A stretch of DNA of 64,000 bases, taken from positions 19,633,537-19,697,536 of the forward strand of contig NC_134428.1 of assembly GCF_030867145.1 (NCBI RefSeq), given 5' to 3'. The notes beneath the pieces are model-generated. The model was not told where the DNA came from, searched no databases, and was given only the letters and a program-made list of their open reading frames with translations. Position numbers and translations under genes: made by a program. How positions within the stretch are numbered: position 1 is the first letter of the stretch; every line of letters begins with the position of its first letter. This DNA is from Opisthocomus hoazin (lineage: Eukaryota; Chordata; Aves; Opisthocomiformes; Opisthocomidae). Shown here one piece after another: positions 3,001 through 29,862 of this stretch.

Positions 3001-6000
3001 CAAATGCGCATATGTGAAAGGCTTTGAACTTGAGTTACATTCCATGTATGCTGTTTGAATGCGTTGCAGCTCACTCAGACTACTGTGGAAGCATGAATGT
3101 GAAGGAGTTTTACAGAGAAGATGGCCATCTTGGTGTAAATGAGGAATCAATATGTAAGTAGAATGACTGATGTTGTCTTTCAGCCTTGGGCTGTACACCA
3201 GGTTGTTGCTGTAACAGTAATATCAGATGGCCCCTGACTCTAGGGAAGCTGCAAAGTCAACGATTGTTTGGCAACTTGAACGTAGGGGCAAGAATGGCGA
3301 TTGCCTGGTGTACTGTAAGATTTCCCCAAGCAAGATTGACTCTGCTGTAGTTTGCTTAGTGGTTTTTGGTTTGATAACTGGTGTGATGACACAGACTTGT
3401 TCAAGTTTTCTTGTAACAATCTTGATTTGATCCTGGCTTTGTCCCATTAATCGACTGTTACCACAACCAACAGGTGATGACTGTAAGGGGAAGAAACCTC
3501 TTGAACTGTACGCCACAGACCACATGCAATCTTTACGGGCTAAAAGGGTAGCAAGGACCATTTGGCACACCTTTTCTTATGCAGGTTGACTTGGACCTTT
3601 TTTTTTCTTTTGTTTTTGTTTTGAATCGCAATCTCACAATGTTAATCCTACATATTGTTTTGTGTTTGTTTTCTTATCTTCATCTATCAAAGTAGATGAA
3701 AAGTGTAAAGTGTCTAGAAAATTAATGAACAGCTCTTCTGTTTGATTCTTGCTCTGATACTGGCTTTCGTACAAGCTTGGCGCGCTGCTTAGCTATTAGG
3801 AAAAACAAGGTGTAGGGACAGCATACACCTTGTATGTTCGAAAGAAGAAGTCATATTGTTAATTGATTCCACTTTGGGGCAGTTGGTACACTTGACAGGT
3901 TGAAAAGCTGCCTTGAAAAGAAAGCAAGGTGTGAGGTATTGGTGTGCAGATGATTTGAATAAAGGGGTTTTAACATTTTATTTTTGTTCTAGTGAGAGTC
4001 AATTTTTCCAGGAGTCTTCTAGAGGGATAGCATCTTCCCTGTGAGATGAGCATTTGCTAGCTTGAATGACAGAGGCATCAAGAATCTGTGGAGTGCCCTT
4101 TATTCAGCAAAGGAAAATGATTTGAGACACTTCAGTCACCTAGATGTTTTGCAAAATATTGGGTTGGTAGATCTATAGTCCCTCAGATGAAGCCAGACAT
4201 ATCTGCTAATCTAAAAATGTAGGATTATTTTCTCAATTTGTACTACGTAGTATGTTCTGTAGAACGAGCAGTCCTAGTCTTGGAAATAGTAATTGTTGGC
4301 TTGGATGGAAGCAAAAACTGATGCTGCTAATCTGTGCATTTCTTGAAACATCTTGAACTGTCTTCATTGTGTGGTAACTTCGATTCAAACATTGACTTCT
4401 GGCAAGATAGCGTTGTTCTAACAAATGAGCATTTCATATTTTTGCGTGGCTGTTGGTTTTGTTGAGTAGCTGGTGTTACAATGCTGTCATGCTTGTGCTA
4501 TCTGGATGTTAATAAGCTGCATGCATTGCCTGTGCTCACGCATTTCTCTGCTCCGCAAAGCATTCTTGGCCACAGTTGCATGTCCCTCTGCTTGGTTCCT
4601 TTGAACACGTGCCGCAGTAATGACATTTCGCGCTACCACTTTTTGTCTTCTAGGGAGGGCAGCTTCTGGCATGTACCGGTTACTTAGAACTGGATGGTAT
4701 CAGCTTGCTGCTCTTGATGTCTTTGCTCAAGGTGTTTCTTCTAAAGAGGTGTGTATCCTTTGAGAAAAGTGTTTTGTGAGCAAATGATTTACCCAGTTAT
4801 AAAACAATACAAGAGGAGAAATGTGTTGTTTCATGTGAACTTTCCTCTCTCTTTCTCTAGATGCCTTCCAAAGACCTACAAGCTGTTCCTGTTTCTTCTC
4901 CCGCTCCTGTTTCTACTAGGTACGTGAATCGCTTAGTTATGACACAGACCGGTGTATGCTTACTGCAGCCGTTCCAAGAGAGCGTTTTTAGTTGAACTCT
5001 CGGTTTATGAAGAAGACGCAGAAGCAAAAAAGAGCAAGTTTGTTTGTGACTAGGGCAGCAATTCAAGCTTTCAAAGTACTGACAAGTCAGTAGCCTTCCC
5101 CTTGCCGTGAAAGGAATACCCTCGATTTAATTTCATAGAGCTCTTTAGAAAGTGAGAGTGGGTGAGTAAATGCACTGAAGTCCTTTTTTCTTCACCTCCC
5201 TTGATAAGAATAGCAGTGAGGTCACAAAGAGCAGGTTGTGTACCGATTGCTTTGATTGTTGTTAATCTCCGTAAAAGTGGGGTTAGGTTCTTTGAGCAAC
5301 TCATCCGAAGTCTTTCCCTTGCTCTGGACCATCCTTGAGTTGCTTAAAATACTGCTGTTTAGACTGGTTAGTTGACAGTATTCCAGGCCAGCTGTCTTCT
5401 TTGAAATAAACAAACTCAGTTTCGAACACTTGCTGAAAGTGGTGGGCTGTTTCTGAAAAGCAGGTTCATGTCTTCGCATGTCCTAAAAACTTTAGAAACT
5501 ACTCTGGGGAGAAGATGAAGCTTCGCAGAAACTTACAGTCAGGATTGAAAATCCTCTCTACTAGGGAGAATAAGAAAGGAAGAACTTCCCTACCCTGTGT
5601 AGAAAGTGCTGCTACTTCTTGCTAAGACAGTGCAAAAACAAGCGTCATGTTTGTGAACTGCGAGATTGCCTAATATCTAACAAAAGTTGGAAGAAACTTG
5701 GGCTTCCGTGGAAACAATGTGGTATGTAGTACGTAGGGTACAGGGCAAGATATTTTCCATGGAGATAAAAAGCAGTTTTTTACATCTGCCTTCAGTGAGC
5801 ATGGCCTGTCTTAATTGGTAAATGAGATCTAGGTCCCAGGGACGCAGTAGTATGAGATTGAGGATATACCATGAGACATAAGCGCAAGCTGCCTGCCATA
5901 CAACGGTGTGAGCGGTACTGATGGATGTTCCCCAGTGTGCTTGAGTGCTTGGCTTCACAGTTTGAAAGCTGGCTCATACTGATTTTTGTTCAGACTGGAG

Positions 6001-9000
6001 TAGTGTGCGCTGTGTGACGTCTAGCTTGCAAACTTAAGGTAGCTTGTGTCACGAAGTAGGAAGACGACCTGTAGATCTAAGCAGTCTTCAGGGGGAATTC
6101 TCTTGAACACTCTTTTTGCCTTTTGTTTGGGATCTAGGTATATGGTTCTGGGGGTTTGATGGCTGCTTCTTACTATTACCTTCGTTGAACTGGATCAAAA
6201 TTGATAGAATACAGAGAACAGAGGACTCTCTCCGTGTTCGTGAACCGCAGGCTGATTCTTTGCACTCTGTGCAACCTCCAGAGGTAAGGGAGAACAGTCT
6301 AGGGAAGAACTCTGATGTCTTGGAAGACTTCTTAACTGCCATGCCTTCAATATTTGGCAAGAACTACTTGACACACAAGGCTAATGTGAATAAATGTCTT
6401 GATCTTTACATATATAAAACAAAATTCTGTATACCTTAGGGTACCATCAACATCTTTGCTTCTGGTCGTGAAAGTGAAAGTGAGCTGGAAAAGCAAATGG
6501 CCTTTCTGTCTGAGAGATACCATCACCTTGATGAAAAATATAGCAAAGTGATGCTTCTACTCCAGAACCTTCAAGATCAGGTTGCCCAGAAAAGTGACAA
6601 AAGCAAAACATTGACGCTAATAAGAAATATGATGGGTCAACATCCTCAAGATGCGAGACTGGAGCAAAAGGTAAGATAGTCAGTTGTTGCTGCTTTCTGG
6701 TGCTGATCGACGTATCCTGTTTTAGTAACGCAGATTACTAGCCATTTGATTCAGGCTTGCGTCCAATTTTGTGAGCAAAAGTGATTTGCAGCCTTTTCTG
6801 CGGGATCTAGAGTTGCAGATCCTCCAGAAGATCACTCTCCATATGTCTGTGACAAGCCAAAAGCTAACATCTGCAGTAGTAACAAAGGCTGTGACTAATG
6901 CAGGGGTTCGTGGAATCACAGAAGCGGTGAGTGAGTTGAAGTTCTCGCAAGTTCAACTAAAACCGTCAGGAGTCCTTTTCTAGGCATTTTTTGGAGCATC
7001 GCAGTCAATATAAACGTCAGTGACTTGAAGAGATGTTTAGAACATGAATTGAAATGGGGAGAACTACAGAAAATGCTTGATGAAGCGTACACTTACAGCA
7101 TTGCTTGTTGCCTGTTGCAAATGTTGTTTTTTTTTTCCAAAGTATGCTATCTTGAAAATTGCAGAATTCCCAAAAAACAGCTATACCAAAGCAATGCAGC
7201 TCAGGGTCTTGGGAAGGTGGGGGAAAGAATGCAACTTTTGAAGAAAGCACCAGTCAATATGCAGTATGAATTTGTATTTTAAGCCAAAAAACCATGCACT
7301 AAAAATGGCCTCTGTCTTGAGAGAGGCTTTCAAAGACTTGCGATGGAGTGCAGCATCTCAAAAAGATGCTTATTCTACATGTATACAGATGTGTATAGAT
7401 CAATTACTTTATCAGTTGATATTATTAAATTCTTCCCTTTCTCCTCTTCTATGTGTATATCTGTAGCAAGCCCAGACTATTGTAAACAATGCCCTGAAAC
7501 TTTTCTCTCAAGACAAGACTGGTATGGTGGATTTCGCCTTGGAATCTGCAGGTAAATAGTGGAGGAAACTCCACTTTCACGATTCATGTTATTTATAGTA
7601 TCTACTAAAAATGTCGAAAGATCTGCTTGCGTGGGGTGTATGCACCACTGAACTCGCTAGGGAAAATGTGTATGTTTTAGCCCTCTGAGGTGAAAAGCCT
7701 TGAACATTCTGAAAAGAACACTGTACTTGATAGAAGCATTGTATCCCCAGCCAATGACTAGACTTGAACAGTATCTTTACTAGTTGGTTTTGAGGAAAAG
7801 AACTGGTATGTTCACGAAGCTTTGTACAAATCTCTGGCTGAAAAGTCTTCAGGAAGAAATGAGTAATTATTTCGGCTAACCTGATACATCTTTTTTAAGG
7901 TGGCAGCATTCTGAGTACTCGCTGTTCTGAAACCTATGACACCAAACCAGCAGTGATCAGCCTCTTTGGAATTCCTCTGTGGTACCTCTCTCAGCCTCCA
8001 AGGGCGGTGATTCAGGTAATTAAAGGCCGAGTGAAGAAATTCAGCAATGTTATTTTGTGCTGAGGGGTTTGGATTGTTTCTTGGATGCTGGATGTTTCTG
8101 TCTGCAGCACACTGTGGGGCACGGGTCCTTTGAACGATGTTCCCAAGAGTGCCATTCTTCTGGTAGTTCCTGGGCGCTGCTCAAGTCGTCTTCTAGCAAA
8201 ACAAAGACCCTGCTAGGAGGCTTGGGTGGTACACTGGACTTCTGCAGAGTGTGAGCACTGGGAGGGTTCCTGTTGTGAAGTAGTCTCCAGGCGGATCTTC
8301 AAAACGCTGCTGGCTGTTTGGGTGGATGTGCTGTCTCCCTGAAGAATGCTACCAAATAGATTATATTCTGCCACTTACTCTCTAAGACTGTCCCTAATAA
8401 TTCAGAATTCGCCACAACTCTTTCTGGCAAAATGCTTGTGGCTGCAGGTTTTGTTGTTGCTGTTGTGTTCCATCCTGTTCTCTCCCCTTTCCTCCTGTCT
8501 AGCCGGACATGTATCCAGGAAACTGCTGGGCTTTCAAAGGATCACAGGGGTATCTCGTAGTTCGACTTTCAAGGAAGATCTATCCGACTGCCTTTACGTT
8601 GGAACACATCCCAAAAGCACTTTCACCAACAGGAGAGATCTCCAGTGCTCTGAGGAGCTTTGCAGTATATGTAAGTCTGTCTGTGAACTTCAGAGGATAT
8701 TTGTATGCATAAAGAATATTTGTGGCGCAGATCTTGGAAAATAAGGACTGAAGGGAGGACAGCTAAGGAGAGAAACTGTTTGCTTTTAAAATTGCTGTTT
8801 TTGTAATCAGCTTTGAGACTAGGAATAAGAAGTGTTACAGCTAATTTTGAGGGAGCTGTTTCTTTTTTTCCTGCTTTATACAGTAGTAAACATTTTTGGA
8901 GGGAGGTGACTGTTTTTGATTTGGTATCGTTCTTTCAGGCACTCAAATTGTTCCATCCTTCCACCACTCCTACTGCTTACCCTCTCCCTCCCCAGTGTTG

Positions 9001-10171
9001 GCTTTGCACCTTGTCTGTGATGTGCCTTCAGTGTGTTTTAAATTGATTTTAACTAGCACCACAGCTGCTTAGGCAGGACTGCAGAACAGAAGACCACAGG
9101 CTACATCAGAGAGTAGCTGTGATACCTGAGAACATTTGTCTAGCTCCATTAAATGCTGAAGCCGCCGTCTGCAAGCATCTGAATCTTGGCTTCCGTCTTG
9201 TTTGTGATGTTGCTGTTTTCTCATTCTTGTTTGTCCTGAGCAGTTTACATTGTCCACTGCGATCTTGGTTGTGCCATGGAAATGATGGGGTTTGACCATG
9301 AAAACAGCAACATACAAACATAGCACAGCTCTTTGCAGTTCAGGAAAGTCAAATGCAGAGCTGTGGCTGAAGAAGCATGAAGTTCCACGGGAAGTATTCT
9401 GACCTCGGTTTCAGAGACTTGCGTTGACAGGCAGTTAGGTAGGCATGCTTCTGTCTTTGGTTTGACTTGAAATGTGATGGAAGCAAACGTCTTTCTCCTG
9501 TTGTTGTAGGGTCTAGATAATGAATATCAAGAAGGCGGCAAGCTTCTAGGACAGTATGTCTACGACCAAGACGGAGAACCACTGCAGACCTTTCCAGTGA
9601 TGGTAAGTCTGGATGAGAAGATTTCAAGTGGCAGAAGAAGCACACGCATATTTTCTAGGGTAGTGCACAATGAGCAGTGAAGGAAAAAGGCTTCATTCTC
9701 TGTTGGGCACCGTAGAAACTGAGGTGGAAAGTAGCTACTGATCTGCCTCAAAACCTAAGGTTCGGATAGTTTAGAGGGGAGGAAAGTTTTGTGCCAGGTG
9801 GACACAAGTGGTGTGAAGATACCGAACGTATGAGGAGTCTGCTTCATGCTGCTTCTGACTCCCTTCACAAAAAAAAAACCAACAAACCGGTTGTAAGGCA
9901 AAGAAGGTTCTGTTCCAAGTGGCAGAAGGTTCCCAAGGCATCACTCAGTTATTAATCAAAGTTGGTAGTTGCAGGAATGAAGGAAAGCGCCTTCAGTTGC
10001 ACCTGTTTATACTCCAAACCGAACTCTGGTTTGTGTGTTTGTTTTTTCCTTCTGCAGGAGAAAAGTGAAAACGCATTCCAAATAGTGGAACTGAGAGTGT
10101 TTTCTGACTGGGGACATCCGGAATATACCTGCCTTTATCGGTTCAGAGTGCATGGGAAACTTGCCGAATAA
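1..10171 (+). pseudogene. SUN1: SUN1 copy A, 5' end outside window, probably non-functional
   Basis: SUN1 is an inner-nuclear-membrane protein whose SUN domain binds KASH peptides in the perinuclear space (family knowledge). Exons seen: E4 78-269, E4b 3070-3153, E5 3474-3584, E7 4654-4748, E8 4861-4919, E9 6138-6283, E10 6440-6670, E14 remnant 6756-6926, E15 7467-7551, E16 7900-8015, E17 8503-8670, E18 9510-9602, E19 10058-10171. All have AG/GT borders except the E14 remnant. E15-E19 encode an intact SUN domain (FALESAGGSIL, RCSETYDT, HPEYTCLYRFRVHG). Lesions: E6 is gone in a deletion near 4302; E7 has one extra base, which leads to TGA at 6159-6161; E11-E13 and half of E14 are deleted. The deletion joins an intronic CAG to E14 at 6755, and splicing there reads into TGA at 6782. 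An SUN-only transcript from a downstream start cannot be excluded. Confidence 0.85.
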
Positions 10172-11205: not shown

Positions 11206-12930
11206 AATGCTGTTGAGAGGATGCAGAGAAGGCTGAGCTACTGAATGCCTTCTTTGCTTCAGTCTTCAGTGCCAAGGCAGGCCCTCAGGAATCCCAGGCC
11301 CCGGAGGTAAGAGAGGAAGCCTACAGAGAGGATGACTTTCCCTTGGTCGAGGAGGACTGTGTGAGGGATCGCTTAAGCGATCTGGATGTCCACAAATCCA
11401 TGGGCCCCGATGGAATGCACCCACGAGTGCTGAGGGAGCTGGTGGATGTCATTGCTGAGCCACTCTCCATCATCTTTGAGAGGTCCTGGAGGACAGGAGA
11501 GGTGCCGGAGGACTGGAGAAAGGCCAATGTCACTCCAGTCTTCAACAAGGGCAAGAAGGAGGACGCAGGGAACTACAGGCCGGTCAGCCTCACCTCCATC
11601 CCGGGAAAGGTGATGGAGCAGCTTATCCTGGAGGTCATCAACAAGCAAGTGGAAGAAAAGAAGGTTATCAGGAGTAGTCAGCGTGGATTCACCAAGGGGA
11701 AATCATGCTTGACCAATCTTACAGCTTTCTACGATGAGATGACTGGCGGGGTAGATGAAGGGAGAGCCATAGATGTTGTCTACCTAGACTTCAGCAAGGC
11801 TTTCGACACAGTCTCCCATAATATCCTCCTAGGGAAGCTCAGGAAGTATGGGCTGGAAGAGTGGTCGGTGAGGTGGATTGAGAACTGGCTGAATGGCAGA
11901 ACTCAGAGGGTTGTACTCAGCAGCGCTGAGTCTAGTTGGAGGCTGGTAACTAGTGGTGTCCCCCAGGGGTCAGTACTGGGCCCAGCCTTGTTCAACTTCT
12001 TCATCAATGACCTGGATGAAGAGTTAGAGTGTACCCTCAGCAAGTTTGCTGATGACACCAAACTGGGAGGAGTGGTAGATACACCAGCAGGCTGTGCTGC
12101 CATTCAGCGTGACCTGGACAGGCTGGAAAGTTGGGCAGAGAGGAACCTGATGAGGTTCAACAAAGGCAAATGCAGGGTCCTGCACATGGGGAGGAACAAC
12201 CCCAGGCATCAGTACAGGCTTGGGGCGGACCTGCTGGAGAGCAGCTGTGTGGAGAGGGACCTGGGCGTCCTGGTGGACGACAGGTTAACCATGAGCCAGC
12301 AGTGTGCACTGGCTGCCAAGAAGGCCAATGGCATTCTGGGATGCATCAAAAGGAGTGTGGCCAGCAGGTCGAGGGAGGTTCTCCTTCCCCTCTACACTGC
12401 CCTAGTGAGGCCTCATCTGGAGTACTGTGTCCAGTTCTGGGCTCCCCAGTTCAAGAAAGATGAGGAGCTACTGGAGAGAGTCCAGCGGAGGGCTACAAGG
12501 ATGGTGAGGGGACTGGAACATCTCTGCTATGAGGAGAGGCTGAGGGAGCTGGCCTTGTTCAGCCTGAAGAAGAGAAGGCTGCGAGGGGACCTTACAAATG
12601 CTTACAAATATCTGAAGGGTGGGTGTCAGGAGGATGGTGCCAAGCTCTTTTCAGTGGTGCCCAGTGACAGGACAAGGGGCAATGAGCACAAACTGAAGCA
12701 CAGGAAGTTCCGTCTGAATATGAGGAAGAATTTCTTCCCTCTGAGGGTGACGGAGCACTGGAACAGGCTGCCCAGGGAGGTTGTGGAGTCTCCTTCTCTG
12801 GAGATATTCAACACCTGCCTGGACAAGTTCCTCTACAACCTACTGTAGGTGACCCTGCTTCGGCAGGAGGGTTGGGCTAGATGACCCACAGAGGTCCCTT
12901 CCAACCCCTACCATTCTGTGATTCTGTGAG
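11206..12930 (+). mobile_element. CR1 LINE, forward 3' segment with ORF2 reverse transcriptase, unit A
   Basis: The frame is open from about 11217 to the stop at 12846-12848, covering the reverse transcriptase and C-terminal part of CR1 ORF2. Motifs: [62 protein letters not shown] (motif A), [27 protein letters not shown] (catalytic motif C). The N-terminal endonuclease domain and the ORF2 start are missing because of the 5' inversion, so it is not autonomous. The tail carries the CR1 3' end (gatgacccacagaggtccct) and ATTCTGTG octamers at 12912-12929. No target-site duplication is evident. Confidence 0.93.
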
Positions 12931-12959: not shown

Positions 12960-13228
12960 AAAGCGCGCGTAATGCTTGAAAGAAGAAATCAAAGTTTCTT
13001 TCCTGTATTTTTGATCACCTGCTGCAATCGCTACGCCAGTAAAACCCAAGGAGTGCCCCTTGCCCGAGGGGCAGGCGCAGGGGCTTTGTTGCCAAATGCC
13101 TTCTCCCCCTTCCTCTCTCCCCCCGGCTGGGTCTCAGCGGTCTGCAATACCCTCTCCCCAGTTCGTGCCTGAGATGTTGGGGCTTGGGTTCATTCCGCTC
13201 TCTGAGCCCCCTTCCCTCAGCTGCGTCG
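12960..13228 (+). promoter_or_regulatory. GET4 5' flank in unit A, CpG-rich putative promoter
   Basis: The DNA between the CR1 tail and the GET4 ATG turns C/G-rich from about 13040, with pyrimidine runs, and continues as a CpG-dense stretch through exon 1. That is the usual form of a housekeeping promoter. No TATA box is visible and no transcription start can be fixed from sequence. In the array this is the nearest CpG-type promoter upstream of SUN1 copy B. Confidence 0.45.
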
Positions 13229-13736
13229 ATGGCGGCCGCGATGATGGCGGCGGAGCAGGAAGCCGTCAAAGGCGGCGGCAGGAACCGCGGCGGCGTGCAG
13301 CGCGTGGAGGGCAAGCTGCGCGCCAGCGTCGAGAAGGGCGACTGCTACGAGGCGCACCAGATGTACCGGACGCTCTTCCTCAGGTGGGGCCCGGCCCGCC
13401 GCCCTGCCCCTCCCCACCCGGCCTTCCAGAGCCTGCCCACGCACCCAGCGTAACCACATCTGTTTTGCTTTCCTGGAAGCTTCTCTTCTGATGCCATCAA
13501 ATGACTATAACTTTTGTGTAAGGGAATGCTGAGACGTGATACTGTGCCTTAGCTGTGGATGTTGATGAAAAGACTAAATCTACAAAATTCTGGTTGATGT
13601 TTTCTTTTCTGTACCGATATGTTCATCACTAGCAGCATCTGTCTGTTTTGTAGCAAAAACAGTGCTGCTGATGTGTCCGTGCTGGGTTTGGAGTCTTTGG
13701 AGAAATCGGATGCAAAAGTAGCAGAGGACCTTTTAG
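13229..13736 (+). pseudogene. GET4: GET4 5' fragment in unit A: exon 1 and exon 3 relic
   Basis: GET4 (TRC35) works with BAG6 and UBL4A to hand tail-anchored proteins to the ER targeting ATPase (family knowledge). Exon 1, 13229-13383, starts [17 protein letters not shown] and contains [20 protein letters not shown], a near match to vertebrate GET4 as I remember it, ending at a good AG/GTGGGG donor. A second exon at 13654-13736 (NSAADVSVLGLESLEKSDAK) matches the next conserved helix region. The intervening exon that normally encodes the ARELMYSGALLFF-type helix is not visible, and nothing after exon 3 is recognisable. Exon 1 to exon 3 would still splice in frame. It lies about 300 bp after the CR1 end and 1.6 kb before SUN1 copy B. 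On its own it cannot make GET4, but it may act as a promoter and 5' exon for the next SUN1 copy. Confidence 0.85.
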
Positions 13737-15341
13737 GTGAGGTGACTTTTGCGCTCGCTTTGACGTTGCTCAGATGTGCTTTGAGTTGGAGACTGGTAAC
13801 AACAGTCACTGTGCAACCTGAAATGCTTTTTGTATGCCCTCCCAGATGGCTAAGGGTTACCTTTGTGGGCATGCTTAGAACAATCGTTGCTGTCAGGTTG
13901 TGCCTGGGGAGGTTTAGAGGAGATACTGGGATAGATATCTTCACTGAAAGGGTTGTCAAGCGTTGGCACAGGCTGCCCAGGGAGGCGGCTGAGTCGCCAT
14001 CCCTGGAGGTATTTAAAAGACTTGTAGATGTGGTGCTTAGGGACATGGTTTAGTGGTGGACTTGGCGGTGTTATGTTTATGGTTGGACTTGATGATCTTC
14101 AAGGTCTTTTCCAACCTAAATGATCCCGTGATTCTACAATACAAATGACATTATTACTTTGTAATGTTCTGGGGTCTTTAACGCTTGTGTTTTTGTTTAG
14201 GATTTTGGGGAGAAGGAGCTGCTTTCATTGACAATATTGTGCTCAGCTCTTTTTTTTTTATTATTTTTTTAGAAACAAAAGCCCCAGGAACGTTGGAAAT
14301 AACGTGTCATATCTCTGTACATCGCTGTGGCCCAAGAAGGGACAGACGCCTTAAGAAAGCTAGCCTAGAACACTCGAGAAAAGCACTGGAGCGTTTAGAT
14401 TCTTGGGTCACAATGCTGGGTGGTTCTAGAAGCTGGTCTTCTGCTGCGCAGTGCCCTGTAGCAAGGAGCTCAGCTCAGCTACGCAGCAGTGTTTCCTTCG
14501 AGTGTAAGTATGAGGCTTCTGCTTGAGGCTAAACTTCTGTTTTAGTACGTTTCTTTCCTGCCGATTCCTCTGTTTAATCTGTTAGTGATTGCCTTGTGTT
14601 GCTGATTTGCCTTGATTGTAAGTTTTCCTGGGGGTTCTGAGAGAATCAAATGTCGAAGTGCGGAGTAGAGTTCCTGGGGTAATGATGGGAAGCTTGTCTG
14701 CCTGTAAACTTGCCTCTGTAGGATAAACCAGAGAAAAATGGATAAAAGACAAAACCATTTTTTGATTTGTACAGAGTTAAAGGTTTGTAATGATTGAGAG
14801 ATGAAGAAATCTTTTAAAACCACTTGGGTTTTTTTTTAAACTCATGGTAGTTAAACTAGTGTACCTAAAGTAGGGAGATCTTGAAGTGTCTTCAAGTGGG
14901 GAAGTTCTTACTTGCTGGGAGATGGAAACTTGGAGTAGTGTGGCATATGGATCTTTGGTTCTCCAAGCAAGGAACGGGCAACCAAAATGTTTAAAATATC
15001 AGCTTTGGCTCTAAATGAGTCTTTACCTTGAAACTGAGAGTGCATCCTGATTTTGAATTTGTGGCTCAGTGTGGCAAAGAAACTGTCCTGAATGGCTTCC
15101 TCTCTCCACTTGGTCCCCACAGAACTGTGTGTCTAAAGCTGTACAACGAATGCTTGCTCTGGTTTGACTTCAAACATGGGTTTCCATGGTGGTTGTTTCT
15201 TTCTAAGTAGCATTAGCTTTCAGTTGCTCAACTTGCAATGTGAAGTGCTGAGGAGAACCCTGACTATCGACGTACTTCTAAGCTGTATTATGTGGCGTGT
15301 CTTGTAGGAGTTGCTCCATAACCCCGGATAAACTGCTTTGA
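13737..15341. other. Spacer between unit A GET4 relic and SUN1 copy B
   Basis: Contains the old CR1 tail (13885-14138), an exon-like open stretch at 14273-14503, and A/T-rich DNA with no recognised gene. The duplication joint between GET4 and SUN1 intron sequence must lie in this interval, but I cannot place it. A 60-codon frame at 15028-15210 recurs in every unit and resembles no family I know. Confidence 0.6.
13885..14138 (+). mobile_element. Older CR1 3' end fragment, unit A
   Basis: The fragment encodes the extreme C-terminus of a CR1 ORF2 (FTERVVKRWHRLPREAAESP, then LVDVVLRDMV) followed by a CR1-like 3'UTR (gatcttcaaggtcttttcca) and a degenerate octamer (cgtgattctac). Its sequence differs from the larger CR1 nearby, so it is a separate and more diverged insertion. 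It lies between the GET4 exon-3 relic and the next SUN1 copy. Confidence 0.75.
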
Positions 15342-18300
15342 ATGGAAACTCAGACTAGCTTGAAGGGCGTGTTTGTTACGAGGGGAATTTTCTCTTCACC
15401 TCAGGTAACTTTGCTCTTCATGTTTTGCTGCAGTTCGAGTTATTCTTCGTCTGCTTTGGATTTTGAGACTGAAAATAAAATAGATCCAGTATTTGATTCG
15501 CCAAGAATGTCGCGGCGTAGCTTACGGTTATCTGCTGCGGCATTGAAGAAATCCAGTGTTGCACCAAAGGATACCCATCCTGACAGCTCTTATGCTGGAA
15601 ACCTGTCCTTCAGAGAGCAGTCTTCCAAGTAAGCACTTTTTGTCGTCACAAGTTAATTTTTTGGTTGGACTCTTGAGACTTTGCAAAAGCATAGATGTTG
15701 GAGGACTTTCTTTTAAACCTGATTTGAGCCGTTTAGTCATGTCAGTTTTAACATACCCTGCCTTTCTTTTTCCTTTAAAGTGAGAGACAAAGAGAAATTT
15801 GCATCTTTCGTGCTGTATCGTATGTGTCTTTGCTCTGTTTCGTAGGGTGCTGAAGCACCGCCCAAGTGTGAATAAGAAATCTGGCAGTGCAAGACACACA
15901 CCAAGGAAGAATCTGTCCCGCTCTTGCATTGTCTGCCAAAGCAGTTTCAATAGCCATGCCAGTGATGTATCAATTGTATCCAGTGCATTGGGTGAATCCC
16001 GGATTCGAGAGCAGAGAGAAGTTAATAATTTCTGGGGTAGGTAATCATTGCCATTGCTTGTATCGGACTGTGAAAGCTGCTTCTGGGTTGGCGTGTATGA
16101 ACGTGTGTCCTCATCTTCCCTCTTTCCCCATCCATGTTTCCGTTCTGCCCTCAGCCGTGTGCACGTACTCACTCTTTTGTTTTAGTTGTCTGCCTGCTGG
16201 AAATTCACAGTCCAGTGAGTAAACTTGATTTACTGGTGTGGTCAGCAGCAGGACACGTTGCACAGTCAAGTGAATGTGCCAGGCAAACGTATATGTGATG
16301 CAGCACCGTAGATTGCATAGATGTAATTCTCTGTTGTCATCTGTGCATAGAGTACTGTATTTGAAGAATGGTAAACACGTAGCTTGTCTTTGCAAAGCCA
16401 AAGGAAAAGCTTTCTCTTGTTTGTGCGTAGCCAGAAGTATTTTTCAACTTAACTTACCTTCACCTGACAGTTTCAAATTCGTGGCACTGCAGTCTTTCCT
16501 GAGGGGGTTTTTGTCTGTGGCTGGCTGGTTTGTTTTTGCAAGGAGGTACAAGTATGCTTTTCTGGAACCTACTTTTTTCATTGAAGAGGAGAATACTTTA
16601 CGTAGACAGTACTCCAGGTGTTGTGTAGGAGAAGATCAACAAATGACTATATCATAGAATCATAGAATCGTACATTGGAAAAGACCTCTAAGATCATCAA
16701 GTCCCACCATCAACGACTATTTGTTTCCAGTCAGTGTGCCTGTGCCCTTGAGTTGTTTCAATCTCAGTAGAATGCGTTCTAAACTGTCAAATACCTGGCT
16801 CTTCAAACAGAATCTTAAAATACGGTAGTACCGAAGTAGTTACCAAGCAACAGAAACGGCATAAGCTTGTAATTAGCTGCTTTCAAGTCAGATGGGAGGT
16901 AAGAAAAGGTGCAGTTGTCATTCATGTTTAGTCTGCTGCTCCCGTGGCAGAATGCTTTTCACTGTCTGTTACCCTACTACAACGATGTCTGAATGTATGG
17001 ATCTGTTTCTGTTCATGTAGTGACTGCAAAATATGTTAAATACCAATCATAAAGTGGCTTTTCTTTGCAGTATTAAAATCAGTGGGACTTTCACTTGGAG
17101 TTCTTGTCAGATATCATAGTTGATTGTGGGACTTCCTTACTTTTGGGACCAAATTTTTTTTTTTTTTTCTCTTGAAGGTCTTGATGATGAAGGCGACCCT
17201 AAAGGTAACTATGGTTTCGTTTTCTTTCCGAGTGCATTCTATTCAACGGTAACTAGCGACGGCGATACTGATAGGAATGCTCTATATGTTTTACTCTTGG
17301 TTGGCTAGGTAGTGATACTACACTAATGCAGGGAAATGGTGATACAGAAACAGCAGAAAACAGCACAGTGGTCAATGGCTACACTTGCAGGGATTACAGG
17401 ATGCTTTCTAAACGGAAGGAGGTTCTGACAGCATACTCGCCTTCTCATGTGCCATCTTCCAGAATTTACTCCAGGGATAGGAGCCAGAAACATGCATCCA
17501 GTAAGTTACTTTCTCTTTTTTTTTTTTTTTTTTCATGTGGTTGGCAGAATGGTGTACAGTTCAGTTGATGCTTTTTTCATGTAGTGTTCTTTAAGTACTC
17601 TTCCTGCCCTGCTAAATTTATCAATATCCAAATTCTAGATATCAGCTTACAAGGAATACCTTCCTCTGTTTCATTTGAAACTTTGCGTACTTGTTGGCTT
17701 CTGATATCTAATCATCAGCTTTTCTTTTTCGGTGCTACTGTAGGACTTACACGGTTTTCGAATACGTGTCTATTTCTAAGGTTTTGGTAAGGGTTTTCAG
17801 ATGAAACTGCTTCTGTATGGTCCAGATTTTTGATGCTTTTTTTTATTCTTACGTGAACTTTCAAAATTGAGCAGAACAGTTACTTTGCAGTGCTTCTGTT
17901 ATGCAAGAAATTGGAGAGATGCTGTCCTACTTTGCTTTGGGTTTTTTCTCCTCATTTAACCGTGCAGCTTATTAGAGTGTTTTTAGAAGCTAAACCTCAA
18001 GTCCTTGAAAAATGGAACTCCAAAGGGGAAAACTGATTCCAGATAGACTCCCTGGTGACCATATTCCTAAAGCTCAAAACCAAATGAATCTGCTGTAAAC
18101 AAGGTTCTGCCTTTTCAAGGCAATCTCCATTATAGGGATGCTTGTCCTCAGTGTCCTGACTGCATCTGCCTGCCTCTTGTATACCATCTGTAATTTCTTG
18201 ATGGTTGGTAGTCCTCAGTTCTCAGGAAGTTGTTCCGTGAGTGGCCTTGAATTAGGAACCGATTTTGGAATTCTGTCAGTGTGTTGTTATTCTTGAATGA

Positions 18301-21300
18301 AGTATGTTCTCAGTAGCAAGAAATCCGTTAGTTCGGACTGTGAGGTGTGACTTCAAGTGCTTTGGGGCAAGTATATCTTTTTGGTAAATCGGTATCACAG
18401 GTAGGAATTCTGTTGGCTTAGCGTCATGAATTACAAGGGACACTGTATGAAACCTACTTTCTGTGCTCCTGAGTTTGTATTCACGCAGGAGAATTCTACA
18501 AGGAACTCATCTTTGCACATGCATTTGAACTTGAACTGAGTAGTTTGGGTTCAACTTCGGGAGGGCGGGGGAAGAGGCACACAGTCATGGCAGGTTTTGG
18601 GAATGTGGCTGATTCTAGGAGAGCAGCAGTATGGAGGACTGCCGCTTTGTTCCCGTGGCTCTGCAGAAGTGTGTGTCTCTAGCACTTGAGACAGACCGCT
18701 GCAGGAACTTCCTGCAATGCAGAGGCAGAGGAGGAGGTGAGAAGTCCTCACCCTTTCCAATCCACAAGAAGGATGCAGTTTGTCGCTTTGGAGCTGTAAC
18801 CCACAAAATCAGTATCAACAGCTCACATCATCCTTGGGAAATCCTGAGTTGTGTAAGCAAGGAATTCATTGCTATGTAGAGTTCTTAATTCCCTTAATGC
18901 CCTTTATTCAGCAAAGGAAAATGATTTGAGACACTTCAGTCACCTAAATGCTTTGCAAAATATTGGGTTGGTAGATCTATAGTCCCTCAGATGAAGCCAG
19001 ACATATCTGCTAATCTAAAAATGTAGGATTATTTTCTCAATTTGTACTACGTAGTATGTTCTGTAGAACGAGCAGTCCTAGTCTTGGAAATAGTAATTGT
19101 TGGCTTCAGTGGGCTTCAAGTCACAGCACTTTGTTCTAGTCTGTTGGGGTTTGTTGTTGTTGTTGGTTTTGTTCTTTCTAAGAGCCTCAAAATTGACCTG
19201 CTGAAGATCCTTGGGAACATTCAGTTTATTGAACGTTTACTGCTTGTAACTTTTAGTAGGGAATATTTTCTATTATTTGTGAGTATTTCTCAGGCATCAT
19301 TAATTCTTTCACTAGGATTTAAAACTTTTAATTGTTCCTTCTTCTGCACATGAACCCAGACAATGAACTTGATGTAGAACTCAGAACAAATCAGATGCTT
19401 TTAAAGTAATGATGTGCTTAAAACTTGTTTTTGTGGTACTACTTTTTTACTCTTCTTCTACACTTAGCATGACATTGTTAGATAAACGTGCTGGAAAAGG
19501 TAAACTTTGATTTTTGGAAAAGTGATACGCTACACAGATGCTGTTGATCATTCTGTTGATCTCTGTAGATGAAAATTGTGTTTCTAAATTGGCTTGCTTT
19601 TACTTGGCTTCGTATCTATTAGTGGCTTGCTTTGCTTCTAAACAGTGAAGAACCAAGTCTGTAGATTATTGAAAGGTATGGTTTAAAATATTGCGGAACG
19701 TGTAATGTGCAGGGGATCGCATCTGTTTTACTGCATGTGCTGGGAAAGAAGATTAAGCGCATATATGTATGTTACCACAAGAAGTGAATTTGTTGTAATC
19801 TAGGTTACTTTATGCTTGACGTGTTGCAAACAGTGGGAGCAACAGGATGGCTTGTGTCTCAGAAGGTGGTGTCTCTACTTTGGCTGGCCGTTCTTTCTCC
19901 AGGTGACTGTCTCAGTCTCTGTGTGTGTGTGTGTGTGCGCGCATTGCCCGTTCCTTTTGACAAACTAGGACTCTGCAGGACATGGCGTACACTAATTCAA
20001 CTATGCTTATGCTGTAGCTTTGGTGTCTTGAAATGCATGTGCTGCTTTTCTTTATTGACCAAAATATGCGTAATGAGAGGGTATATTTCTGTTCGCAGGC
20101 ATAATGGGAGACTAAGCGGACCGCTTCATGCGGGAACAAGTGTGTGAATAGCACAGAATATGGGGTGCCAAGAATAACGGGGCATGTTTTGGTTTGGTAG
20201 TCACTGCCCATGTTGGTATTCCTCTTAGCAAAAACTGATGCTGCTAATCTGTGCATTTCTTGAAACATCTTGAACTGTCTTCATTGTGTGGTAACTTCGA
20301 TTCAAACATTGACTTCTGGCAAGATAGCGTTGTTCTAACAAATGAGCATTTCATATTTTTGCGTGGCTGTTGGTTTTGTTGAGTTTCTGGTGTTACAATG
20401 CTGTCGTGCTTGTGCTATCTAGATGTTAATAAGCTGCATGCATTGCCTGTGCTCACGCATTTCTCTGCTCCGCAAAGCATTCTTGGCCACAGTTGCATGT
20501 CCCTCTGCTTGGTTCCTTTGAACATGTGCCGCAGTAATGACATTTCGCGCTACCACTTTTTGTCTTCTAGGGAGGGCAGCTTCTGGCATGTACAGGTTAC
20601 TTAGAACTGGATGGTATCAACTTGCTACTCTGATGTCTTTGCTCAAGGTGTTTCTTCTAAAGAGGTGTGTATCCTTTGAGAAAAGTGTTTTGTGAGCAAA
20701 TGATTTACCCAGTTATAAAACAATACAAGAGGAGAAATGTGTTGTTTCATGTGAACTTTCCTCTCTCTTTCTCTAGATGCCTTCCAAAGACCTACAAGCT
20801 GTTCCTGTTTCTTCTCCCGCTCCTGTTTCTACTAGGTACGTGAATCGCTTAGTTATCCAAAGTCTTTCCCTTGCTCTGGACCATCCTTGAGTTGCTTAAA
20901 ATACTGCTGTTTAGACTGGTTAGTTGACAGTATTCCAGGCCAGCTGTCTACTTTGAAATAAACAAACTCAGTTTCAAACACTTGCCAAAAGTGGTGGGCT
21001 GTTTCTGAAAAGCAGGTTCATGTCTTTCATGTCCTAAAAACTTTAGAAACTACTCTGGGGAGAAGATGAAGCTTTGCAGAAACTTACAGTCAGGATTTAA
21101 AATCCTCTGTACTAGGGAGAATAAGAAAGGAAGAACTTCCCTACCCTGTGTAGAAAGTGCTGCTACTTCTTGCTAAGACAGTGCAAAAACAAGCGTCATG
21201 TTTGTGAAATGCGAGATTGTTTCCAGGGAAGCCCAAGTTTCTTCCAACTTTTGTTAGATATGCGAAGTGGTATATAGTAAGTAGGGCATAGGGCAAGATA

Positions 21301-24300
21301 TTTTCCATGGAGATAAAAAGCAGTTTTTACATCTGCCTTCAGTGAGCATGGCCTGTCTTAATTGGTAAATGAGATCTAGGTCCCAGGGACGCAGTAGTAT
21401 GAGATTGAGGATATACCATGAGACATAAGCGCAAGCTGCCTGCCATACAACGGTGTGAGCGGTACTGATGGATGTTCCCCAGTGTGCTTGAGTGCTTGAC
21501 TTCACAGTTTGAAAGCTGGCTCATACTGATTTTTGTTTAGACTGGAGTAGTGTGCGCTGTGTGACGTCTACCTTGCAAACTTAAGGTAGCTTGTGTCACA
21601 AAGTAGGAAGACGACCTGTAGATCTAAGCGGTCTTCAGGGGGAATTCTCTTGAACACCCTTTTTGCCTTTTGTTTGTGATCTAGGTATATGGTTCTGGGG
21701 GTTTGATGGCTGCTTCTCACTAATACCTTCGTTGAACTGGATCAAAATTGATAGAATACAGAGAACAGAGGACTCTCTCCGTGTTCGTGAACCGCAGGCT
21801 GATTCTTTGCACTCTGTGCAACCTCCAGAGGTAAGGGAGAACAGTCTAGGGAAGAACTCTGGTATCTTGGAAGACTTCTTAACTGCCATGCCTTCAATAT
21901 TTGGCAAGAACTACTTGACACACAAGGCTAATGTGAATAAATGTCTTGATCTTTACATATATAAAAAAAAATTCTGTATACCTTAGGGTACCATCAACAT
22001 CTTTGCTTCTGGTCGTGAAAGTGAGCTGGAAAAGCAAATGGTCTTTCTGTCTGAGAGATACCATCACCTTGATGAAAAATATAGCAAAGTGATGCTTCTA
22101 CTCCAGAACCTTCAAGATCAGGTTGCCCAGAAAAGTGACAAAAGCGAAACATTGACGCTAATAAGAAATACGATGAATCAGCATCTTCAAGATATGAAAC
22201 GGGAGGAAAAGGTAAGATAGTCAGTTGTTGGTGCTTTCTGGTGCTGATCGACATATCCTGTTTCAGTAATGCAGATTACTAGCCGTTTGATTCAGGGTTC
22301 TTTCTGTTGCAGAATTAGCTGGTAGGTAGTAAATGCCAGGGAGTAGTCGCTGGCATTTGTTCCTCCTTTGTTATTGCTGACAAAGATTTCCAGATATTTG
22401 GTCTAAAGTAGAATCTTCAGTTGCTGAAAGTCGGTTGGATTTATCTTGTTTTCATACAGAGAAAGAAGACTGTAGAAAGGACTAGTGACAAAGAAGGGGT
22501 TTTGTGGTAAACTTCCCTGTGTGTAATGCGTACTACTGCTGAATCAGGCCATTATATTTATTACAGATTCTATCGTTTCTCACAGTAGCTGCAGGATAAG
22601 TCACTTAAACACAGAACGAAATAAAAATTATGCTTGGTAGAAAACCTCAGTTATGCTATTTGTACTCAGCAAGAAAATACACCCCTTTTTTCTTTCCTCT
22701 CTTTTAAGAGTGACTTCCTGGCTTTACGTCAAGAACATGAGTTGCGTATCCTGACACTGGAAGACCTTCTTCAAAAACTCTCTGCTGAATATAAGGTATT
22801 TGAAAGTTAACTTTGTTACCTTGCTGTAATTGTAACCCTCTGGTAAAACAGACTTAGTTTTTTGTTGGCTATCGTAAGCCCCAGTTTGCTTTACTCTAGC
22901 TGTCACAGTTGTTTAAGTCTCAAAAGTTGTTTGTATTCTTGCTCCCCGTTCTTGGAGAGCATTTCAGTCCATCAATTAAATATTATTCACTTGACCGAAG
23001 GCGCAGGTTTTTTTAATAAAGATCTTATTATACAGAGGCACAAACACAAGTATGGAGACAGTCCTGTATAGGTGGTGCTAAAATGTGTCATTTTCATTTC
23101 ACATTCTTTATCCTCTTTCTGTCAGTTGTGTTTCTTTGTATATGTTAAAACTAACTTCTGTATTCTGTAGGCCATCCAGAAGGAGCTTGATGTAGCCAAA
23201 GCAAAACCAATGAGGTATAAGCACATTTCAAATAATTTTCATTTTTCGATCCTGATGCTAACTGATGGTGATATACGTGTTATTCTTTGAAATACAACAG
23301 TACTTTGTGTCCTTTAACTGACTGTAAGAGTTTGTGTCATCAGCAAGAGTACTGCTGTCTTATAGTGGGCTTTAACTGTGATGCCGAACATCAGCACAAG
23401 GCCGACTTCCAGTATGTGAGCAGTCCTACAACTACATTTTGTACTAGAGAAATCTGTGAATGTACAGGAGGAGAACGAGTGACTTCTCATCCTATTATAA
23501 ATGCATTAGAATATTTCCTCAGATTATGTAGTGATGTATACAGTAACTGCTTTTGATAGGCTTTATATTTAAATTCTTAATTGTATCAGTTCTAACCTTT
23601 TGTTTCTGTTTTGGTTTGTCAGCGATACTACTTTCCACTCACGTACTGTGTAATACCAAAATAAAAATTGCGGCACTTCATGAAGCAGTTTCCCCGTTGG
23701 GAAGAGGAAAAGACACGCTTCTTTACTGAATCTGAATTGTTGTTTACATTGGTTCTAAATGTAAAACGGCTTTAAAGCAATGGCTGATAGTTTTTTCCAC
23801 AGCATGCACTAAACACTGAACTATATTGGTAATATGTGACCTGCTTAACTTAAGCTTAGCTTGACATCTGCCTCTAAAGCTATTCTGGTTTAAGTAAGGT
23901 AACCTGAAACTCGCTCTAACCAATGGCAAATTCATGCAAATAACGTTTGACTGGTTTGCCAGAAACCTTAAATCACATAAAATCTATATATGTTTGACTT
24001 ACAGTCGATCTGGTGATGTTCTAAAGTCATCACTGCTGGATTTTGTTCACAACTTCAAAATACTTTGCTTTGAATATATTAATCCTAAGTATGCCTTAAA
24101 TGCCATCTTCATGGAACTGCAAGCTCGCAGTGTCTACCATGGTGAATAACTGAGCTAGGAAAGCACTTTGTATTGGACAAGTAGGTTCTCGCACCTTTGG
24201 AATTTGATGGAATGATTCAAACTACTCTTTCCTAACTATTGACTCCTTGTTTTTGTCAGAGATGATGATGAACATAACCAACTTCTGTCCAAAATTAAAA

Positions 24301-27300
24301 AGATAGAACTAGAGTTGTCTCAGATGAAATCGGAGTTGTTAACTGCAGAAAGTCTGAAGAAAAGTTGTGAGAAAATAGAGGTCATTCATGAAAAAGTAGG
24401 TTCCGTAACTTCTGTAACTGTCCCAGTAAAACTTCGTAGTACTTGATTTTGTTCACTAACTTTCTTGAAATGCACTGCAGTAAGTAATGTGGGGGTAGTG
24501 TTCATGTTAAAGAATGGTTGTGTTCTATGTAGTGGTACTATAAATTCTTTCCATTAGCACGTAACATTTCACTCAACTAGTTTATGGCTTGTTTCCTACA
24601 GCAGCAGGGTTTTTTGCATTTAAGACACGATGCAGTAGCAGGATGCAATAGCAGTTCTGTATACAGTACTTACCAATGCGTTATGCCTAACCCATGGAAA
24701 TATGGAACAAAAACTCATGTAAAACAAGTTAGGTTTGTGATCCGAGGGATGTTTTTAAAAAAATCGGGCTTAATTTCTTTTGAAGCCTTTTATACAATCT
24801 GACTAGAATGTAGCCAACAAAATACAACAGCAAGTATTAGTGCAGGATTATCAGCTTTGACTAAACTATTGTCTTGTGACAGTGCTCAAATATGATCTAC
24901 CTATTGTGTACGGAATCAAAGCATACCATAAGGAAGTAATTAAGCAACTTGCTTAAGTAGGCCGAACAAGTACCCTGCTCCTCTTAGAGTTGCCCCGGTG
25001 CCTTCTTTGAAATGTTGCAGCCAACGTTTTTATTCTGAAGCGTTGAACCCCTAGTGTAAACTACACACTTTCCTAGGGCTTTAAGTGTGTCGTGTCCACC
25101 AAACCAGTGCGGCACCCGGATTTCACATATGTTCTTCTGCACACCTGACTGGTCTGTTACTGCAGTGTTAGTCAACGTAGTTAAAATAGGCGTGAAAGCT
25201 AGACTGCTATGTAGTATCGAATGTAGGTATTGATTTCACATATGTCTATTAGATATGGTGTTACTTGGTTTATAAAGATTAATCATTTTGGTTACAACTG
25301 TTAATGGCTTCTACTAGGTAAATGCCCAAGTCAAGGAATCTGTCAAGCTAATGCTTTTTGGTGATCAACAAGAAGACTTCCCCGAATCGCTTCTTCAATG
25401 GCTTGCATCCAATTTTGTGAGCAAAAGTGATCTGCACACTTTTCTGCAGGATCTAGAGTCGCAGATCCTCCAGAAGATCACTCTCCATATGTCTGTGACA
25501 AACCAAAAGCTAACATCTGCAGTAGTAACAAAGGCTGTGACTAATGCAGGGGTTCATGGAATCACAGAAGCGGTGAGTGAGTTGAAGTTTTCGCAAGTTG
25601 AACTAAAACTGTAAGGCGTCCTTTTCTAGGCATTTTGTGGAGCATCGCAGTCAATATAAACGTGAGTGGCTTGAAGAGATGTTTAGAACATGAATTGAAA
25701 TGGGGAGAACTACAGAAAATGCTTGATGAAGCGTACACTTACAGCATTGCTTGTTGCCTGTTGCGAATGTTTGTTGTTTGTTTTTATTTTGTTTTTTTTT
25801 TTTTTTCCAAAGCATGCTATCTTGAAAATTGCAGAATTCCCATAAAACAGCTATACCAAAGCAATGCAGCTCAGGGTCTTGGGAAGGTGGGGGAAAGAAT
25901 GCAACTTTTGAAGAAAGCACCAGTCAATATGCAGTATGAATTTGTATTTTAAGCCAAAAAACCATGCACTAAAAATGGCCTCTGTCTTGAGAGAGGCTTT
26001 CAAAGACTTGCGATGGAGCGCAGCATCTCAAAAAGATGCTTATTCTACATGTATACAGATGTGTATGGATCAATTACATTATCAGTTGATATTATTAAGT
26101 TCTTCCCTTTCTCCTCCTCTATGTGTATATCTGTAGCAAGCCCAGACTATTGTAAACAATGCCCTGAAACTTTTCTCTCAAGACAAGACTGGTATGGTGG
26201 ATTTCGCCTTGGAATCTGCAGGTAAATAGTGGACGAAACTCCACTTTCACAATTCGTGTTATTTATAGTATCTACTAAAAATGTCAAAAGATCTGCTTGC
26301 GTGGGGTGTACGCACCACTGAACTCGCTAGGGAAAATGTGTATGTTTTAGCCCTCTGAGGTGAAAAACCTTGAACATACTGAAAAGAACACTGTACTTGA
26401 TAGAAGTATTGTATCCCCAGCCAATGACTAGACTTGAACAGTATCTTTACTAGTTGGTTTTGAGGAAAAGAACTGGTAATACGTTCACGAAGCTTTCTAC
26501 AAATCTCTGGCTGAAAAGTCTTCAGGAAGAAATGAGTAATTATTTCGGCTAACGTGATACATCTTTTTTAAGGTGGCAGCATTCTGAGTGCTCGCTGTTC
26601 TGAAACCTATGACAGCAAAACAACAGTGATCAGCCTCTTTGGAATTCCTCTGTGGTACGTCTCTCAGCCTCCAAGTGCGGTGATTCAGGTAATTAAAGGC
26701 CGAGTAAAGAAATTCAGCAATGTTATTTTGTGCTGAGGGGTTTGGATTGTTTCTTGGATGCTGGATGTTTCTGTCTGCAACACACTGTGGGGCACGGGTC
26801 CTTTGAACGATGTTCCCAAGAGTGCCATTCTTCTGGTAGTTCCTGGGCGCTGCTCAAGTCGTCTTCTAGCAAAACAAAGACCCTGCTAGGAGGCTTGGGT
26901 GGTACACTGGACTTCTGCAGAGTGTGAGCACTGGGAGGGTTCCTGTTGTGAAGTAGTCTCCAGGCGGATCTTCAAAACGCTGCTGGCTGTTCGGGTGGAT
27001 ATGCTGTCTCCCTGAAGAATGCTACCAAATAGATTATATTCTGCCACTTACTCTCTAAGACTGTCCCTAATAATTCAGAATTCGCCACAACTCTTTCTGG
27101 CAAAATGCTTGTGGCTGCAGGTTTTGTTGTTGCTGTTGTGTTCCATCCTGTTCTCTCCCCTTTCCTCCTGTCTAGCCGGACGTGTATCCAGGAAACTGCT
27201 GGGCTTTCAAAGGATCACAGGGGTATCTCGTAGTTCGACTTTCAAGGAAGATCTATCCGACTGCCTTTACGTTGGAACACATCCCAAAAGCACTTTCAGC

Positions 27301-29836: not shown

Positions 29837-29862
29837 CAGATGTACCGGACGCTCTTCTTCAC
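29837..29862 (+). pseudogene. GET4: GET4 exon 1 tail remnant in unit B
   Basis: Only the last 26 bases of GET4 exon 1 survive (QMYRTLFF), followed by the same GC-rich intron start as in units A and C. Upstream it joins directly to the inverted CR1 segment, so a deletion of about 2.2 kb has removed the forward CR1 half, the GET4 promoter and most of exon 1. The last exon base is changed, giving CAC/GT instead of CAG/GT at the donor. This unit cannot supply the GET4 start codon. Confidence 0.75.

Follow-up and report, generated by a model that had tools for sequence, protein, structure and literature searches.

A SUN1-GET4 segment amplified in tandem probably underlies the GET4 pieces that head SUN1 copies in the hoazin (Opisthocomus hoazin), with the default GET4-started product being frame-shifted and any chimera being mostly a by-product of the amplification. 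On sequence grounds, the window (the whole 64,000-nt stretch of DNA that was analysed) covers part of a tandem array in the hoazin neighbourhood of SUN1 and GET4, which we take to be neighbouring genes in birds. Four tandem SUN1 copies (A-D), in blocks that are 92-99% identical, are found in the window:

1..10171, + strand: SUN1 copy A (part, E4-E21); E4-E7 match the hoazin model P0217 exactly
15434..28844, + strand: SUN1 copy B, 18 exons, frame unbroken to the SUN1 stop
15434..15628, + strand: SUN1 E1 of copy B, placed by exon mapping to P0217, with AG/GT borders
37428..50585, + strand: SUN1 copy C, with E5 damaged, E16 shifted and the E18 acceptor changed from AG to AT
55882..64000, + strand: SUN1 copy D, cut by the window end, with altered acceptors at E3 and E5

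Lesions are thus present in three of the four copies (A, C and D). In copy A there is a +1 shift in E9 and E16 is only partial, while E8 and E13-E15 were not found in the copy A region of the window; E13-E15 were not found in the copy C region either. The E1-E3 exons and 5' end of copy A lie outside the window. Compared with the usual SUN1, copy B retains the SUN domain but is missing E5-E7 as well as the usual first coding exon. The losses of A (E8 and E13-E15, with E9 shifted) and B (E5-E7) are complementary. Copy B has the SUN domain and the SUN1-type exon order of a SUN1 in-paralogue: its SUN domain has 5ywz_A as best PDB match (E 1.5e-112), and a stretch of copy B matches the SUN1 chain in 7e34 (E 7.9e-9). 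In copy A, E19 gives a Sad1_UNC match.

Tandem arrays are difficult to assemble, and the arrangement could in principle be an assembly artefact. However, the blocks differ by about 1-8% and have private exon losses, and a private retroelement flanked by GGTTTC has inserted in joint J2, making an artefact very improbable. Two mobile elements lie near the joints:

11217..12848, + strand: open reverse-transcriptase frame 5' of the GET4 exon 1 of joint J1 (Pfam RVT_1, E 2.2e-32), presumably CR1-like
31091..37168, - strand: LTR retroelement inserted in J2, with 395-bp LTRs that are 98.99% identical

The J2 element has GGTTTC on both sides and encodes Gag_p24, dUTPase, RVP, RVT_1, RNase_H and rve domains in separate frames.

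The first-pass annotation had described SUN1 units that lack their usual first coding exon and are preceded by GET4 exon 1 with its CpG promoter. The arrangement of the parts holds: neither the native first coding exon (MDFSRLHT...ALS) nor the alternative first exon of some other birds (MCFCLRP...) has a credible match within the window, and GET4 exon 1 with a GC-rich stretch before it is present at J1. GET4 exon 3 (13654-13736 and 54100-54182), the lack of a credible GET4 exon 2 match, J2 and the lesions in A, C and D are elements beyond that annotation. The GET4 pieces are as follows:

13030..13228, + strand: GC-rich stretch 5' of GET4 exon 1, a putative promoter
13229..13383, + strand: GET4 exon 1 at J1, 51 codons plus two bases, matching PDB 7ru9_C
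13654..13736, + strand: GET4 exon 3 remnant at J1, 83 nt, found by phmmer and tblastn
29837..29862, + strand: last part of a GET4 exon 1 at J2, lacking the usual start codon
53660..53829, + strand: GET4 exon 1 at joint J3, 170 nt, 15 nt longer near the start
54100..54182, + strand: GET4 exon 3 remnant at J3, identical to the J1 remnant

At both J1 and J3, the GC-rich region and GET4 exons 1 and 3 precede a SUN1 copy without the usual first coding exon. The J1 exon 1 matches 7ru9_C, 'Golgi to ER traffic protein 4 homolog', with an E value of 4.6e-22, has the donor CAG|GTGGGG (score 4.7) and encodes exactly the peptide with which P0121, P0122 and P0222 begin. From 13030 to 13430 the GC content is 0.68 and the CpG o/e 0.77, and in the sequence upstream of exon 1, J1 (12980-13228) and J3 (53426-53674) agree at all 234 aligned bases. 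The two exons 1 differ by 7 substitutions in 155 positions, of which five fall at CpG sites and five alter the protein. The J1 exon 3 matches the GET4 chains 6au8_A and 7ru9_C by phmmer (E 0.0012-0.0013), is also found by tblastn with residues 79-105 of the bird GET4 P0126, and has acceptor and donor scores of 3.0 and 5.7. The GET4 exon order 1-4 is not seen in the window: exons 1 and 3 are present, and exons 2 and 4 have no credible match within it. The repeated segment would begin somewhere in a SUN1 intron that precedes E1 and end somewhere beyond GET4 exon 3.

A GET4-SUN1 fusion gene, formed by splicing directly from 13383 to 15434, had been proposed on the basis of matching frames, and the match itself is correct at J1 and J3. 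GET4 exon 1 is 155 nt long, leaves two codon bases (AG) over and thus ends in phase 2, and SUN1 E1 takes phase 2, supplying the one base needed; the direct junction followed by the 18 exons of copy B gives an open frame of 825 aa, and the direct junction at J3 (53829 to 55882) is also in frame. Since about one third of random joints keep the frame by chance and J1 and J3 share ancestry, the frame match counts once. The fusion is borne out insofar as the 825-aa frame is open and GET4-headed public models exist, but not with the direct splice as its expected product: exon 3, which has good splice sites, intervenes, and 0 of the 3 GET4-headed models use the 13383-15434 junction. If the GET4 start fires, default splicing would probably join exon 1 to exon 3 to SUN1 E1, as the splice scores suggest. 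This joining shifts the frame, and the product would end with a stop at codon 96; exon 3 would have to be skipped for the in-frame GET4-SUN1 protein of 825 aa to arise. The scores derive from a simple matrix, which is unreliable alone because it rates the AG at 15405 (8.4) above the E1 acceptor at 15434 (1.4).

GET4 exon 1 and SUN1 are already combined in P0121, P0122 and P0222, 3 of the 336 listed proteins and all from hoazin, which stand for 19 member sequences, although the same protein may have been counted from more than one source. Each of the three, like the hoazin models P0001 and P0217, is listed with a longest contig of 26,829,410 bases. These models start with exon 1, end in SUN1 in frame and bypass exon 3 through exons with mostly weak splice sites, two of which are implied by P0222:

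13846..13896, + strand: bridging exon N1, located by tblastn; acceptor 2.7, donor -3.2
15039..15161, + strand: second bridging exon N2, located by tblastn; acceptor -6.5, donor -2.0

It is possible that an in-frame GET4-SUN1 protein is made under the GET4 promoter, via exon 3 skipping or via N1 and N2, as the three models and the open frames of copy B, at both 825 aa and 883 aa, would permit. We consider this rather unlikely, since the N1 donor, N2 acceptor and N2 donor are poor, scoring below the range of the SUN1 exons of copy B, and P0121 and P0122 differ from P0222 in where they leave N1 and contain peptide segments that fall in SUN1 introns, which looks like transcript-free prediction. 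Moreover, five residues differ between the exons 1 of J3 and J1, and the copies show no visible constraint. Public models that begin with GET4 exon 1 should be verified against RNA: if RNA supports them, three hoazin models that reach SUN1 in frame from GET4 exon 1 would count against the splicing that we favour, as does the unbroken 18-exon frame of copy B.

Another start lies closer to E1:

15342..15449, + strand: ATG followed by an open frame (METQTSLK...) that runs on into E1, a possible alternative start (P0001, P0328)

Transcription of the SUN1 copies may begin within the SUN1 intron that they retain; the N-terminus would then be METQTSLK..., and GET4 would play no part. The frame is open from 15342 into E1 in copy B and recurs at 37336 and 55790 in copies C and D, the hoazin model P0001 uses this start, and the N-terminus resembles that of P0328, SUN1 isoform X3 of Camarhynchus parvulus (66.7%). 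Nevertheless, the scenario draws on gene models, the frame runs through the usual E1 acceptor, and P0001 has four residues more than the window sequence, so that we regard such a start as unlikely.

A different route to SUN1 is implied by P0217 (905 aa, native MDFSRLHT start), whose residues 165-905 correspond to E4-E7 of copy A plus E8-E21 of copy B at 741 of 741 positions. E4 distinguishes copy A from the other three copies, and E18 distinguishes B from A and C. The model thus skips J1 and E1-E4 of copy B. Working SUN1 could begin at a native first exon to the left of the window, continue through E1-E7 of copy A and pass, by a splice of ~16 kb (3584 to 19804), into E8-E21 of copy B, with the GET4 piece as intron, a scenario that also suits the complementary exon losses and that we hold to be a reasonable possibility, if not the probable one. 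Should the sole intact SUN1 reading prove to be split in this way between two tandem copies, the gene structure would itself be unusual. However, a gene predictor can stitch adjacent copies, and E1-E3 of copy A fall outside the window. Furthermore, over E17-E21 copy B did not prove to be better preserved than A or C; there B departs most from conserved bird residues (24/175, versus 20/175 in A and 18/175 in C), contrary to what a preserved functional half should show. Such two-copy splicing is compatible with the amplification that we favour, as it concerns the use of the 3' half of copy B.

Exons and introns of the copies differ to a similar extent (B-C 9/605 versus 47/3013; B-D 12/605 versus 57/2464; B-A 9/576 versus 49/2582; 3' part of B-C 11/576 versus 49/2582). 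No purifying signal was seen in any of the six copy pairs, the N/S counts, small and non-independent, fitting neutrality; the pair A-D has a pN/pS of 0.59, on three changes. These counts exclude E12 in C and E16 in A and C, which failed the alignment cut-off, and the damaged E5 of C. Judged from its sequence, array-type SUN1 is evolving fast, and 43 of 377 sites that are invariant in 24 other birds are changed in it. The fusion claim is weakened because exon 3 intervenes, P0217 bypasses J1, exons diverge about as much as introns, and A, C and D carry lesions. Chimeric transcripts could genuinely originate from J1, but the joint is probably for the most part an amplification by-product. It is distinctly improbable that the array constitutes an expressed, fast-evolving, hoazin-specific GET4-SUN1 family with a GET4 N-terminus and a housekeeping promoter, with ordinary SUN1 being spliced copy-to-copy across the joint.

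The array invites comparison with the Sdic cluster of Drosophila melanogaster, an AnnX-Cdic chimera in tandem copies for which expression and a sperm-tail product are reported in the account drawn on here (PMC3395120). As far as that account goes, in both cases duplication and deletions fuse a piece of one of two neighbour genes to the body of the other, several tandem copies and a new N-terminus result, and a retrotransposable element lies upstream, in Sdic of each copy. The hoazin array would thus share with Sdic parts of two genes at a duplication joint, tandem copies and a possible chimeric open frame. In contrast, the Sdic coding region is described there as coming from Cdic alone, with AnnX giving promoter material, whereas the hoazin array keeps GET4 coding exons; and unlike Sdic with its reported expression, the hoazin array is known from sequence and gene models, with three of four copies lesioned. 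Tandem duplications in Drosophila yakuba, where chimeric genes were studied in a population sample with RNA-seq, indicate that duplication joints can shuffle regulatory elements and exons and alter expression (PMC5460883), whereas the hoazin case is a multi-copy array known from DNA and gene models. An amplified, fast-changing bird SUN1 array with neighbour pieces would provide a vertebrate counterpart of Sdic in which the beginnings and failures of chimeric genes could be studied.

For a germline-restricted or W-chromosome origin no support was found in the papers searched, the SUN1 passages located being concerned with mammals, in whose meiosis SUN1 helps to tie telomeres to the nuclear envelope according to one of them (PMC10687773). 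Estimating array size from the SUN1-bearing contig (26.8 Mb versus ~20 Mb in several birds) was dropped because SUN1 contigs of other birds also measure 26-29 Mb.

Blocks of 92-99% identity are repeated throughout the window, and exon mapping resolves four tandem SUN1 copies (exons E1-E21), with duplication joints that carry pieces of GET4 lying before copy B (J1), copy C (J2) and copy D (J3).

SUN1 copies in the window, from exon mapping
left edge to 10171, copy A
15434-28844, copy B
37428-50585, copy C
from 55882, copy D, truncated by the window end

E8 and E13-E15 are missing from copy A, which also carries a +1 shift in E9, and copy B is without E5-E7. In copy C, E5 is damaged and contains a stop, E16 is shifted and the acceptor of E18 is lost, and in copy D the acceptors of E3 and E5 are altered. 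No hoazin SUN1-GET4 array was found in open-licence PMC full text, as judged mostly from listings. The closest known case is Sdic (AnnX-Cdic) of Drosophila, and the tandem-duplication chimeras of Drosophila yakuba bear a general likeness to the hoazin joint.

The first-pass annotation had proposed that direct splicing from 13383 to 15434 may create an in-frame GET4-SUN1 fusion.

GET4 and SUN1 exons at the joints
13229-13383, GET4 exon 1 at J1, 155 nt, two codon bases left at the 3' end
13654-13736, GET4 exon 3 at J1, between GET4 exon 1 and SUN1 E1
15434-15628, SUN1 E1 of copy B, one base needed to complete the codon
54100-54182, GET4 exon 3 at J3

The phase fit is as had been claimed, the two bases left by the 155-nt exon being completed by the one that E1 needs, and splicing GET4 exon 1 to 18 copy B exons in silico gives 825 residues to the SUN1 stop. 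In the public hoazin model P0217, the native first coding exon joins E1 at ...ALS|SSYSS in the same phase, so that GET4 exon 1 can stand in for the native exon in frame. At J3 the frame is likewise kept through E1 and E2, with a GET4 exon 1 that is 15 nt longer than at J1. A random joint keeps frame with a chance of about 1/3, and J1 and J3 are copies of a single event.

GET4 exon 3 is identified by matches to PDB chains of GET4 (E 0.0012) and to residues 79-105 of bird GET4; exons 2 and 4 have no credible match in the window. With a crude scoring matrix, by which an AG at 15405 (8.4) outscores the E1 acceptor (1.4), the exon 1 donor stands at 4.7, the acceptor of exon 3 at 3.0 and its donor at 5.7; these three sites and the E1 acceptor are all inside the range of the SUN1 exons of copy B. 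Inclusion of exon 3 shifts the frame to a stop at codon 96, or at codon 82 with both bridging exons implied by the public model P0222 (N1, 13846-13896; N2, 15039-15161) and at codon 97 with N2. Among seven splice forms, all four without exon 3 are open and none of the three with it is. The joint and its frame are real and a chimera is possible. What the GET4 start would most likely yield is a frame-shifted transcript, and the public chimeric models take another route than the proposed junction.

A search with exon 1 matched 96 proteins, two of which (P0121 and P0122) have SUN1 domains, the rest being GET4-type or unlabelled; GET4 exon 1 and SUN1 motifs occur together in 3 of 336 proteins among the matches listed (P0121, P0122, P0222), which comprise 1, 15 and 3 member sequences, a tally in which the same protein may recur. 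Their peptides run from exon 1 into RWLRVTFV, using an acceptor at 13846 and not 15434, and P0222 continues through N2 into E1 in frame. Where the exon 1 motif is complete, in 79 of the listed proteins, C39 and L51 are unique to the three, the others having Y and F. Since N1 has a weak donor (-3.2; its acceptor is fair, at 2.7), N2 is weak at both its acceptor (-6.5) and its donor (-2.0), and some peptides of P0121 and P0122 map to SUN1 introns, the GET4-headed models look like predictions without transcripts. The GET4-SUN1 chimera is a possible candidate that public models reach by a route other than the direct junction.

Splicing E4-E7 of copy A (78-3584) to E8-E21 of copy B (19804-28844) reproduces residues 165-905 of P0217, so this model sits on the window with the GET4 joint within a 16.2-kb intron, which suggests a native SUN1 first exon left of the window. 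Copy exons that differ from P0217 are E16, E18, E19 and E21 in A, E1, E2 and E4 in both B and D, and E1, E2, E4, E9, E10 and E17-E19 in C; E6-E7 are the same in A, C and D. A SUN1 gene spread over two copies, with the start half of copy A spliced across the joint, gains weight because the match is exact (741/741 residues), and the exon losses of A and B are complementary; yet E17-E21 of copy B depart from conserved bird residues at 24 of 175 (20 in A, 18 in C), and a gene predictor has perhaps stitched neighbouring copies together, so we hold this explanation to be tentative and somewhat improbable. The top match to a query of GET4 exon 1 plus SUN1, best among 120 listed of 216, is the hoazin SUN1-like P0001; P0121, P0122, P0217 and P0222 were likewise matched. 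P0001 has an unusual N-terminus, METQTSLKGVFVTRG, encoded at 15342, 37336 and 55790. Because the reading from 15342 into E1 stays open in copies B, C and D and this N-terminus resembles that of Camarhynchus parvulus isoform X3 (P0328), the SUN1 copies may start within that frame, GET4 being perhaps dispensable. Some of these explanations are mutually compatible.

Over a longer history, compared with 24 other birds that we picked from 120 listed (743 shared columns), P0217 is changed at 43 of 377 sites invariant in them, the next most for any bird, each left out in turn, being 17 of 394. Its branch is 0.19 versus 0.10 for the longest other terminal branch in a poorly supported tree, where its placement with Buceros (support 0.32) is not to be trusted. 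Judged from these comparisons, the array-type SUN1 (15434-28844) is fast-evolving. An ordinary hoazin SUN1 may lie in a separate 90% cluster. Since variable sites are still changed (81/366) roughly twice as often as invariant ones, and copy B has no stops where a neutral estimate, itself rough and based on assumed rates, expects 6-10, the array ancestor was probably coding during much of this period. The fast change may reflect relaxed constraint or positive selection.

Among the copies, exons and introns differ alike (B-C 9/605 vs 47/3013; B-D 12/605 vs 57/2464; B-A 9/576 vs 49/2582; 3' part of B-C 11/576 vs 49/2582). For C, E5 had been dropped beforehand, and so had three exons that fell below the cut-off, E12 in C and E16 in both A and C. 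Nonsynonymous shares are compatible with neutrality in all six copy pairs, which are non-independent and have small counts. GET4 exon 1 differs between J1 and J3 at 7 of 155 sites, all C (J1) to T (J3) or G to A, five at CpG and five nonsynonymous; the flanks show no differences in 234 aligned bases upstream and 32 in 2,048 downstream (1.56%).

A recurring piece of about 337 bp, either intronic SUN1 sequence or a dispersed repeat, occurs at J2 as well, pointing to an additional rearrangement there.

Recurring piece of about 337 bp
5343-5679
20895-21219
30287-30623, at J2
45784-46119
63286-63622

The tract 29540-30290 at J2, in which GET4 exon 1 is represented by its tail alone, is CpG-rich (72% GC, 74 CpG, observed/expected 0.77), and since its translation resembles, by eye, the intron reading of the listed protein P0128, the GET4 CpG island may be partly left at J2. 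An open reverse-transcriptase frame of 543 codons (11217-12848), which we take to be CR1-like, precedes GET4 exon 1 by about 380 bp; similar DNA stands upstream of J3, within the long repeat block. An LTR retroelement occupies 31091-37168 on the minus strand, with 395-bp LTRs 98.99% identical, GGTTTC flanks and matches to gag, dUTPase, protease, reverse transcriptase, RNase H and integrase, each in separate frames.
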